Assembly (NCBI GenBank): GCA_018607835.1
Contig: JABBAS010000001.1
Coordinates: 2,197-66,196, forward strand
Reading direction: 5' to 3'
Origin: Methylobacillus sp.
GTDB lineage: Bacteria; Pseudomonadota; Gammaproteobacteria; Burkholderiales; Burkholderiaceae_C
DNA: 64,000 nt
Each line of letters begins with the position of its first letter. Within the stretch, counting starts at the first letter, position 1. Shown in pieces: positions 35,572-54,148 of the stretch. Under the pieces are notes generated by a model that worked only from the letters and a program-made list of their open reading frames with translations, was not told the origin of the DNA and ran no database searches. The position numbers and the translations under genes were made by a program.

Positions 35572-35629
35572 TGTGGATAACTTTGTTTTATCGCTATACT
35601 CATCACTCATTTTTCGATAGCTATCCACA
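35572..35629. promoter_or_regulatory. DnaA boxes upstream of dnaA
   Basis: TGTGGATAA at 35572-35580 (perfect, reverse) and CTATCCACA at 35621-35629 (1 mismatch). Confidence 0.75.
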
Positions 35630-35682: not shown

Positions 35683-37107
35683 ATGACCGCTCCGCCTTCA
35701 CTCGCCGCACAAGCTGAAGGCCTCTCCGCGGACTTGTGGTCGCGTTGTGTTGACTTTTTAGCGCAAGAAATTCCCGAGCAACAGTTCAATACATGGATTC
35801 GCCCCTTGGCCGCAGCCGTGTCAAACGACCCTCTGCGGGTCACCATTCAGGTGGCTAATCGATTCAAAATGGACTGGGTCCGAAGCCAATATGCCCAACG
35901 AATCAGCCAAGTTTTGCAGACGCTTGCCGGTGAGGAAGTTGCCGTAGAGCTAGTGCTCACTCCGCGTGAAGTTGCCGCAAGACAAGCACCCATGCCAACA
36001 CGACCCGCCAGGGACAGCGTTTTCGATGAGGCGGTTGTCGCGCCCGCTTTCGCCTACACCGACAGCGCCGCTGGAGAAGGTGGGCACAAGAGCAGACTGA
36101 ACACCGCGCTCACCTTCGACAGCCTTGTGGAAGGCAGCGCTAACCGCATGGCCCGCGCGGCGGCAATGCACGTCGCGAGTCAGTTGGGACAACTTTACAA
36201 CCCCTTGTTTATCTACGGCGGCGTCGGTCTAGGCAAGACCCACCTCATGCACGCCATCGGCAATTACTTGGTCAAAGAGCGGGCGGATGCCAAAGTTCTC
36301 TACATCCATGCCGAGCAGTTCGTATCGGATGTGGTTAAAGCCTATCAACGCAAGGCTTTTGACGAGTTCAAGGCGCGCTATCACTCCTTGGACTTATTGC
36401 TCATTGATGACGTCCAGTTTTTCGCCAATAAAGAGCGTACGCAGGAAGAGTTCTTCAACGCTTTTGAGGCTTTACTGGCGAAACGCTCTCACATCGTGAT
36501 GACCAGTGACACCTACCCAAAAGGGTTGGCAGACATCCACGAGCGTTTGGTATCGCGCTTTGACTCCGGTCTCACGGTGGCCATAGAGCCGCCTGAGTTG
36601 GAGATGCGGGTGGCCATCCTGATCACCAAGGCAGCCGTCGAGGGTGCGATCATGCCTGAGGACGTGGCCTTTTTTGTTGCGAAAAATGTGCGCTCCAACG
36701 TCCGAGAACTCGAAGGTGCGCTGCGAAAGATCCTCGCCTATTCACGCTTTAACCAAAAAGACATCTCCATTGCGCTGGCAAAAGAGGCGCTACGCGACCT
36801 GCTGTCTATCCAAAACAGGCAGATCTCCGTTGAAAACATACAAAAAACGGTTGCGGACTTCTACAAAATCAAGGTCGCAGACATGTACTCCAAGAAGCGT
36901 CCTGCGAGCATCGCGCGGCCAAGACAAATCGCCATGTACCTGGCGAAAGAGTTGACCCAAAAAAGCCTGCCTGAGATCGGCGAGTTGTTCGGCGGGCGAG
37001 ACCACACCACAGTCTTACACGCCGTGCGCAAAATTGGTGCCGAGCGCGGCCAACTAAGCGAACTAAACCAGGCCCTTCACGTGCTAGAGCAGACCCTTAA
37101 AGGTTGA
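35683..37107 (+). CDS. dnaA: chromosomal replication initiator protein DnaA
   Basis: [19 protein letters not shown] Walker [10 protein letters not shown]-terminal [15 protein letters not shown]. Confidence 0.97.
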
Positions 37108-51365: not shown

Positions 51366-51848
51366 ATGCGTCCTTTTATTCGAAATATGGGCCTTGTCGC
51401 TGTTGCTGGCAGTGTTGTGGTCGTGTCAGCGTTGGCTTTTGCAGGCCATGACGATGACGACCACGGACGGTACAAGCATAGGCAAAAGCACCACATGGTC
51501 AAGGCTGAGAATTTAGCTGCGCTCAAGGTGAGTCTAAACTTGAATTCAGAGCAACTCCCTCTGTGGGATATATACGCCTCACCGACACGTCCCACTAGCC
51601 AAGACCCATCGGTAGATCGGGCAGCCATGCGTGAGCAAATGGAGGCACTTGAACCAATGGAACATTTGCAATTCGTGAAGGAAAAGCACACCGATCGCCA
51701 TAACAAGTTAATGGCGCACTATGATGCAACCGAACGCTTGTATGAGAGTTTGGACCCCCAGCAAAAAGTAACTTTTAATGAGGCACTCTCAAAGAAAAAT
51801 CGCCACGGTAAGCACCATCGCCGGGACAAAGCGCACGATGATGACTAG
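51366..51848 (+). CDS. Spy/CpxP-like periplasmic protein with His/Asp-rich termini
   Basis: Signal peptide; LNLNSEQLPLW and LDPQQKVTFNEAL resemble LTxxQ repeats; HDDDDHGRYKHRQKHH and KHHRRDKAHDDD. Confidence 0.6.
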   Translation: MRPFIRNMGLVAVAGSVVVVSALAFAGHDDDDHGRYKHRQKHHMVKAENLAALKVSLNLNSEQLPLWDIYASPTRPTSQDPSVDRAAMREQMEALEPMEHLQFVKEKHTDRHNKLMAHYDATERLYESLDPQQKVTFNEALSKKNRHGKHHRRDKAHDDD

Positions 51849-51890
51849 ATCACACTTAAAAACGACGTTTCCGTAAACAGAACACATTTT

Positions 51891-51917
51891 AAAAGCACCT
51901 TATGGTGCTTTTTTTTG
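51891..51917 (+). terminator. rho-independent terminator
   Basis: AAAAGCACC TTAT GGTGCTTTTTTTT. Confidence 0.87.
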
Positions 51918-51924
51918 TTGGTAA

Positions 51925-52200
51925 CACTGTGCATAAAAAACCAATAACTAGGACGTTATCCACAGCGCTTGCCTGCGTTCTAAAGTTGTTACATCTTAAG
52001 CAGCGGTGGAAAAGCCACTTTATCACCTAGTTATAGGCTACATAAGCTTATGATTTTTAATGATTTATTTCTGTTATCAACAGAAAATGCTGTCCCTTAC
52101 TACTACTACTATTTATAAATAAAGAAACTAAGATAAGAGGGGACAAGCTGATCATCGTAGCGTTATCTAAGTACAGGTTGTGATGCCTGTGGAGACTGTT
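51925..52200. other. oriC: predicted oriC with basal unwinding element
   Basis: DnaA boxes TGTGCATAA (51928-51936), TTATCCACA (51956-51964), TTATCAACA (52074-52082, 1 mismatch); spacer GCTGTCCC; CTACTACTACTA (52100-52111) then TTTATAAATAAAG; intergenic; apparent skew switch. Confidence 0.8.
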
Positions 52201-52235
52201 AAGATCTGGCATCTATCCTGTTTAAAGACGTTATC

Positions 52236-53006
52236 GTGCCAAAGCCATCCAGCGAAAATTTCTGTTTTGATATAAAAAGCAGTTATTTATCAATCGTTAA
52301 TTTAGTCTTTCAGACCGTAGATGTGCCGCTTATTGCTGCTGATTTGGATAGACGATTTGGCGATGTCGCTGATTTTTTTGATGACGATGCGGTATCGATC
52401 GATTTGACGGCCCTTGCTCTGTCTGATGTTTCCTCAGTTGATTGGGTTGCTTTACTCGCCTTGCTTAGAAAATATCGTATGCACCCCGTCGCTGTGCGTG
52501 GTGTCGGGCCAGATGATCGTGCGATGATTCAGTCTCTCGGATTGGTAATTCAAGAGACACCGTCCCAAGTGACGTCAGCGATAGCGAGTGGTGCATCCGA
52601 TAGTGCGGTCGGTGGGACAGTATCAGCGATCGACGCCTCCACAACCGAGCCTGCGCTTTTAGGTGCATTGGTTATTGATAAGCCTTTGCGATCGGGGCAG
52701 CGTGTATATGCCAAAGGCCGTGACTTGGTTATGTTGGCTATGGTCAATGCCGGTGCTGAGGTGATCGCTGACGGCCATATCCACGTCTACGCGCCATTGC
52801 GGGGCAGAGCCATCGCGGGCGCGCGGGGTAACCAAGAGGCACGTATTTTTGCGCTTGGTTTTTCGCCTGAGTTGATTTCAATTGCAGGTGTTTATCAAAG
52901 CATCGATGGTGATTTACCTAAAGGGGTCGAATCTCAGGTAGCCGTGGCATCTTTAGAGGTTTCTGAGAGTGGTGAACGTCTTATTTACAAGCCAATCAAC
53001 CGTTAA
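52236..53006 (+). CDS. minC: septum site-determining protein MinC
   Basis: C-terminal [45 protein letters not shown]; followed by minDE; GTG start. Confidence 0.92.
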
Positions 53007-53073
53007 AATGGGCATCAGAGCGTTTGGGCCAGGTTTGTCGCGAGCCCGTTTTTTTCTTTAAGGTAATCTATTA

Positions 53074-53889
53074 ATGACCAAAGTTGTTGTTGTCACGTCC
53101 GGTAAGGGCGGGGTAGGAAAGACCACGACCAGTGCTAGTTTTTCAGCGGGGCTTGCATTACGTGGCTTTAAGACAGCAGTTATTGACTTTGATGTTGGCT
53201 TGCGCAACCTTGACCTCATCATGGGGTGTGAGCGCCGGGTTGTTTATGACTTGATTAACGTGATTCAGGGTGAAGCGACCTTAAATCAGGCGCTTATAAA
53301 AGATAAGCAATGTGATAACTTGTTTGTGTTGGCGGCATCTCAAACGCGTGACAAAGAAGCCCTAACCAAAGAGGGTGTTGAAAAGGTATTGACTGATCTC
53401 AGCGCAATGGGGTTCGAATACATTGTTTGTGACTCGCCAGCGGGTATAGAGACAGGTGCGTTATTGGCGATGCACTTTGCAGATGAGGCCTTGGTGGTAA
53501 CCAATCCAGAAGTCTCGTCGGTCCGTGACTCAGATCGCATTTTGGGTATGTTGAGCTCAAAGACCAAACGTGCCATTGACGGTTCGGATCCTATAAAAGA
53601 ATTTCTGTTGATCACGCGCTACAACCCGGCCCGCGTAGAAGAGGGGCAGATGTTATCGTTAGACGATATTAAGGATATTTTGCGGATCCCATTGATTGGG
53701 GTAATACCAGAGTCAGAAACGGTTTTGCAGGCGTCGAACCAGGGCTTACCAGCGGTTCACTTGACGGGAAGTGATGTCTCGGAAGCCTACAAAGATGTGA
53801 TTGATCGCTTTTTGGGTGAAGAGAAATCAATGCGGTTTGTCGATGTTCAAAAATCGAGCTTGTTCAAGCGCTTGTTCGGTCGGGGGTAA
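53074..53889 (+). CDS. minD: septum site-determining ATPase MinD
   Basis: [19 protein letters not shown]-terminal amphipathic helix [10 protein letters not shown]. Confidence 0.97.
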
Positions 53890-53893
53890 GCAG

Positions 53894-54148
53894 ATGTCCT
53901 TTTTAAATTTCTTCTTAGGTGAAAAGAAAAAGAGTGCAAGTTTAGCTAAAGAGCGGTTACAAATTATTTTGGCGCATGAGCGAGGGGATCGGAGCCCTGA
54001 ACCCGACTTTCTTCCCGCGCTACAAAAAGACCTGTTGGCTGTGATTTCGAAATACATCAAAATTAACGCTGAGGACATCAAGGTGCATCTTGACCGTGAC
54101 GCGACGATGGAAGTGCTAGAGGTCAAGATTGAGCTCCCAGATCGCTGA
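53894..54148 (+). CDS. minE: cell division topological specificity factor MinE
   Basis: [31 protein letters not shown]; start at Met32 of the track ORF. Confidence 0.95.

Follow-up and report, generated by a model that had tools for sequence, protein, structure and literature searches.

The intergenic region upstream of minC

In the window, that is, the whole 64-kb stretch of DNA that was analysed, the intergenic region to the left of minC contains a DnaA box followed by a short spacer and a run of in-register CTA triplets, with further DnaA boxes and a predicted IHF-like site upstream. These features, together with the flanking minC and the more distant dnaA gene, are as follows (window coordinates):

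35683-37107, + strand: dnaA, 16 kb from oriC, encoding the initiator presumed to act on oriC
51849-52235, no strand assigned: intergenic region bearing oriC, between a small + strand ORF (51366-51848) and minC (52236)
51916-51924, - strand: degenerate DnaA box TGTTGGTAA with two mismatches, at the family's -158 position, assigned from the sequence and the family consensus
51928-51936, - strand: DnaA box variant TGTGCATAA, mismatched at one position and located at -146 relative to the proximal box, in an aligned column kept in the family
51956-51964, + strand: distal DnaA box, a perfect TTATCCACA, preceding the proximal box by 118 bp
51982-51990, + strand: conserved AAAGTTGTT element lying between the distal box and the proximal one, in family columns +27 to +34 as counted from the former
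52043-52055, no strand assigned: predicted IHF-like site TAAGCTTATGATT at -31 relative to the proximal box, agreeing with YAANNNNTTGATW at 8 of the 9 specified bases
52074-52082, + strand: proximal DnaA box TTATCAACA with one mismatch, pointing toward the trios
52083-52096, + strand: spacer GAAAATGCTGTCCC of 14 bp between the proximal box and the trios
52097-52111, + strand: five DnaA-trios, top strand TTA CTA CTA CTA CTA
52112-52124, + strand: AT-rich continuation TTTATAAATAAAG, of which the first two triplets (TTT ATA, 52112-52117) also fit the N-A-N rule
52236-53006, + strand: minC, the first gene to the right of oriC

The gene order to the right of oriC is minC, minD, minE, mnmG, rsmG, parA and parB, with minE, rsmG, parA and parB being named from sequence and gene order. 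The first-pass annotation had described a DnaA box, a GC-richer spacer and four DnaA-trios at this site, and the box, spacer and CTA trios are indeed present from 52074 onward as quoted there. All four CTA triplets stand, but the TTA immediately ahead of them keeps the register and also counts as an allowed trio (3'-AAT-5'), so that the strong trios number five and the spacer is 14 bp and not 17. The spacer is richer in GC than its flanks, but with 7 of its 14 positions being G or C it is not GC-rich. DnaA would bind the strand complementary to 52097-52111, namely 3'-AAT GAT GAT GAT GAT-5'. Read 3'-5', the complement of 52097-52117 is AAT, GAT, GAT, GAT, GAT, AAA and TAT, which gives five strong trios, or seven by the N-A-N rule, of which four are GAT.

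The published search rule for a basal unwinding system (BUS) allows a box with up to two mismatches, a spacer of up to 16 bp and at least three N-A-N trios (PMC8287927). At this locus the box has one mismatch and lies in the same orientation as the trios and 14 bp from them, and seven consecutive N-A-N trios are present, four of them of the GAT type that is preferred near the box. A second tandem DnaA box is found in 57% of predicted origins and is optional, with single-box modules being accepted (PMC8287927); beside the proximal box, the 9-mers at distances of 0-3 bp all have 5-8 mismatches to a DnaA box. The perfect box at 51956 was also considered as the start of a trio element, and was rejected since three in-register trios are not found within 16 bp of it. 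A search for 13-mer repeats of the E. coli type (GATCTNTTNTTTT) gave best matches with three mismatches and no array, and GATC sites are not dense, with only two in 51850-52240.

Among all arrangements of a DnaA box with trios in the 64-kb window, that at 52074 is the sole one with at least three CTA/TTA trios. A looser pattern, TTATCNACA-N8-18-(YTA)3, matches once across the 2.42 Mb of the genome, and the reversed control matches nowhere. Moreover, a box followed after 13-15 bp by (YTA)3 did not occur in any of 20,000 sequences simulated with an order-1 Markov model of the 800 bp around the site. Viral contigs scanned with a shorter pattern yielded 77 matches, with tens being expected by chance on a rough estimate for the size of the collection.

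Position of the origin relative to dnaA

The cumulative GC-skew minimum of the window lies at 52109, inside the fifth trio of the tract. For a closed genome of the same genus (G001), skew was computed on samples of 20 kb along the chromosome. Negative values extend between about 0.6 and 1.807 Mb, and positive ones begin at about 1.808 Mb, run past the end of the sequence and stop at about 0.56 Mb; the local minimum falls at 1,808,872, the homologous box being at 1,808,533 and dnaA 34 kb away at 1,774,401. The location expected of a BUS, in the chromosome origin, is indicated both by the minimum at 52109 and by the chromosomal flip at the homologous site in G001. In a genome from another genus (G027), skew across a 220-kb stretch reaches its minimum at 2,510,048, with the box at 2,507,367 and dnaA at 2,627,349, 120 kb away. 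Local GC skew in a further genome (G222) is too weak to place an origin. As the skew flips at the trio module in both G001 and G027, the origin lies at the module and dnaA elsewhere, as in E. coli. In the window, dnaA is itself preceded by perfect and one-mismatch DnaA boxes (35572-35629), which are probably autoregulatory.

Conservation of the module and of the DnaA pocket

Conservation of the trio tract in close relatives had been proposed as a check on the first reading, and the tract is kept in all eight same-genus genomes in which the locus is assembled; this count leaves out G004, where mnmG was not found, and G005, where the contig ends beside mnmG. In an alignment of five species, the tract is invariant from its TA onward against a mean column identity of 65%, and the columns of the AAAGTTGTT element are mostly invariant, this element also being kept across the family. 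G001, G002, G006 and G008 have a TTRTCAACA box, a 14-bp spacer, five CTA trios and a perfect box 118 bp upstream. The single mismatch of the proximal box, previously viewed as a weakness, is the form found throughout the genus, since the box is TTATCAACA in four of the five min-bearing species and TTGTCAACA in the fifth. The minCDE genes (52236-54148 in the window) are situated between oriC and mnmG in only part of the genus, and no match to a MinC or MinD ortholog was found in G003, G007 and G009. In these three genomes the module is directly before mnmG, and is thus kept despite changed neighbours: the proximal boxes are TTATCCACG, TTTTCCACT or TTATCCACT, the spacer is 14 bp, and the tracts read CTA CTA TTC CTA CTA, CTA CTA CTA CGA CTA or CTA CTA CGA CTA CTA. 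The perfect upstream box is at 117 bp in G007 and at 119 bp in G009.

At the level of the family, the pattern TTATCCACA-N107-112-TTRTCMACA-N13-15-(YTA)3 is present in 47 of 299 genomes, representing 25 genera, and its reversed control in none of the 299. A laxer single-box form was found in 44 family genomes, with one control match. Together, the strict and laxer patterns account for about 70 of the 299 genomes; the remaining three quarters or so match neither, and to judge from this non-matching to strict patterns the module is variable or missing in about three quarters of the family members sampled. In 46 distinct family modules the distance between the boxes is 118 bp (20 modules), 119 bp (25) or 116 bp (1), and a spacer of 14 bp is found in 40 modules and one of 15 bp in six. 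Since the search pattern itself dictated the boxes, trios one to three and the permitted range of spacing, those columns are not independent evidence. Outside the pattern and yet kept in the 46 modules are AAGTTGTT on the downstream side of the distal box, two reverse boxes lying some 28 and 40 bp upstream of that box, and the fifth trio (C in 92%, T in 90% and A in 100%). The best match to the IHF-like consensus YAANNNNTTGATW lies at -31 in 33 of the 46. At the fourth trio (52106-52108 in the window) the outer bases are kept and the centre is T in 22 modules, G in 11, C in 10 and A in three.

In an order-level sample, the architecture with a box at -118 was matched by 4 of 300 genomes, all within the same family, and a neighbouring family has trio modules with different spacing of the upstream box. 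Across bacteria, 59 of 81 matches to TTATCMACA-N9-17-(CTA)4 have dnaA or dnaN within 1 kb, and several of those further away are Burkholderiales modules of the oriC type described here. Two box-plus-trio modules in tandem, in the same orientation and 267-1189 bp apart, mostly without a large ORF between them, were observed in several Burkholderiales, including Curvibacter and Janthinobacterium (L302:3133 and 3568; L315:10046 and 10580; L311; L308; L040; L059; L071; L076; L090; L397; L398; L403; L425). A literature search on the point found no description of such tandem modules. In addition, box-plus-trio modules are located near polyamine-transporter genes in some relatives (L299:16578, L300:3348 and L303:10033), either close to the origin or on a different contig. 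In one genome (G182, L300:450) a perfect box is followed after 14 bp by about 20 CTA triplets, which may reflect either expansion of the trios in nature or an effect of assembly close to a contig end.

The DnaA encoded in the window is intact. Its Ser215, Val218, Tyr221, Lys230 and Glu256 align with B. subtilis Asn187, Ile190, Ile193, Arg202 and Glu228, and Val218, Lys230 and Glu256 match Val211, Lys223 and Glu249 of the E. coli protein, in which the first three positions are Gln208, Val211 and Leu214. The same set of residues is common to the 20 DnaA proteins that were checked (window and family, L319-L334), except that two have Thr where the others have Ser. In B. subtilis, Asn187 has been reported to hold the central adenine of a trio, and none of the trio-capture residues is universally conserved (PMC10721633). 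The first position is Asn in 63 of 77 diverse genomes with such trios. The pocket is thus changed family-wide (Asn187 to Ser/Thr, Ile193 to Tyr, Arg202 to Lys), although the trios are kept.

A probable basal unwinding element and its counterparts in known origins

The earlier claim of a DnaA-trio arrangement of the B. subtilis type is upheld by agreement with the published rule, by the placing of the site at the origin by skew and by retention of the tract in relatives. With the position of the origin, the exact anatomy and the conservation as set out above, the locus is very probably the chromosomal oriC, with 52074-52117 as its basal unwinding element. E. coli oriC provides a model for the upstream boxes and the IHF bend. 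DnaA would bind the upstream boxes (51916-51964) and the proximal box at 52074, and, as in E. coli, an IHF bend at about 52043-52055 may deliver DnaA from the upstream boxes to the proximal one. From the proximal box, DnaA would nucleate an oligomer growing across the 14-bp spacer and on to the lower strand, with one trio per protomer, and trio capture would then melt 52097-52117 and the adjoining AT-rich DNA, leading to helicase loading. Each of these steps of binding, filament growth and melting is modelled on B. subtilis (PMC6669920, PMC8287927, PMC10721633) and E. coli. Three observations stand against this reading: about three quarters of the sampled family genomes fail to match the search patterns; the fourth trio has T at its centre in 22 of 46 modules, although the trio model makes the centre base key; and Asn187 is replaced by Ser/Thr, with Ile193 replaced by Tyr, in all family DnaA proteins checked. 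Tentatively, and with some doubt, the mechanism in this order may be a hybrid of those of B. subtilis and E. coli, in which the base-reading pocket is altered (Ser/Thr and Tyr for Asn187 and Ile193), the fourth trio goes unread at its centre, IHF replaces the second box as a positioning aid, and some relatives use two tandem modules.

It is unlikely that this oriC opens in the E. coli manner, through an IHF bend, melting of AT-rich DNA and capture of the single strands by DnaA on the upstream boxes, with the trios being auxiliary or kept for some other reason. Such opening would be consistent with the IHF-like site at the E. coli offset from the proximal box (TTG at -24 to -22), with the separation of oriC from dnaA, as in E. 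coli, and with both the base-capture pocket that differs from that of B. subtilis and the variable centre of the fourth trio. Nevertheless, the trio triplets, among them a fifth that lies outside the search pattern, are kept from genus to genus together with their 14-bp phase, whereas the spacer letters are not, and CTA triplets in register would be needless for a purely AT-driven element. A true origin in the dnaA-rpmH intergenic region (35.4-35.7 kb) is highly improbable and was rejected on the basis of skew, the switch lying at 52 kb in the window and, in G001 and G027, at the trio module and not at dnaA, and of the absence of strong trios from that region; dnaA-linked origins are common in bacteria, but the perfect box at 35572-35580 and the one-mismatch CTATCCACA at 35621 are more simply explained by dnaA autoregulation. 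That a CTA microsatellite should lie by chance beside a DnaA-box look-alike is scarcely credible and was rejected on uniqueness and conservation: CTA repeats can expand, as in the run at L300:450, but the arrangement is unique in the genome with an empty reversed control, is located at the skew switch, and has a fixed 14-bp phase and a distal box in many genera.

The basal unwinding element proposed here resembles B. subtilis incC (DnaA-boxes 6/7 and trios; PMC6669920, PMC8287927, PMC10721633) in its co-oriented box and short spacer, in its 3'-GAT-5' trios in register with AT-rich DNA beyond, and in having a distal DnaA box, which is more than 44 bp upstream in B. subtilis and 118 bp upstream here. 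It differs in having a single proximal box in place of the tandem pair, an origin away from dnaA, an IHF-like site between the boxes, and a DnaA pocket of Ser/Val/Tyr/Lys/Glu as against Asn/Ile/Ile/Arg/Glu. A DnaA with a different pocket that acts on perfect GAT trios would offer a direct test of trio-base recognition.

Among other Burkholderiales, the exact position of oriC on Burkholderia cenocepacia c1 was left open by the authors (PMC4948915), and the present locus would give a base-precise oriC with a clear unwinding element for an order in which at least one studied species was left uncertain (PMC4948915). Curvibacter, Rhodoferax, Brachymonas, Janthinobacterium, Massilia and Duganella likewise have a box followed after 13-15 bp by CTA/TTA trios, and the first three of these genera also have a box at -118 or -119. 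In these other Burkholderiales genera the proximal box is mostly TTATCCACA, and several have two modules.

The likeness to E. coli oriC extends to an R1-like box that faces the unwinding region, the mnmG neighbourhood and a dnaA gene kilobases away. It also extends to an IHF-like site behind the box proximal to the DNA unwinding element, here TAAGCTTATGATT at -31 with its TTG at -24 to -22 from the R1/proximal box, as a consensus match. The set of boxes differs, with the distal box being at -118 here, and the trios of E. coli are weak (13 bp, then CTA ATA AGA) in contrast to the strong trios of this locus. The BUS score of E. coli is relatively weak, and its weak trios have been noted together with the separation of its origin from dnaA (PMC8287927). 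The locus described here combines an E. coli-like layout (IHF-like site, mnmG neighbourhood and dnaA elsewhere) with strong trios, and the two traits are therefore separable.
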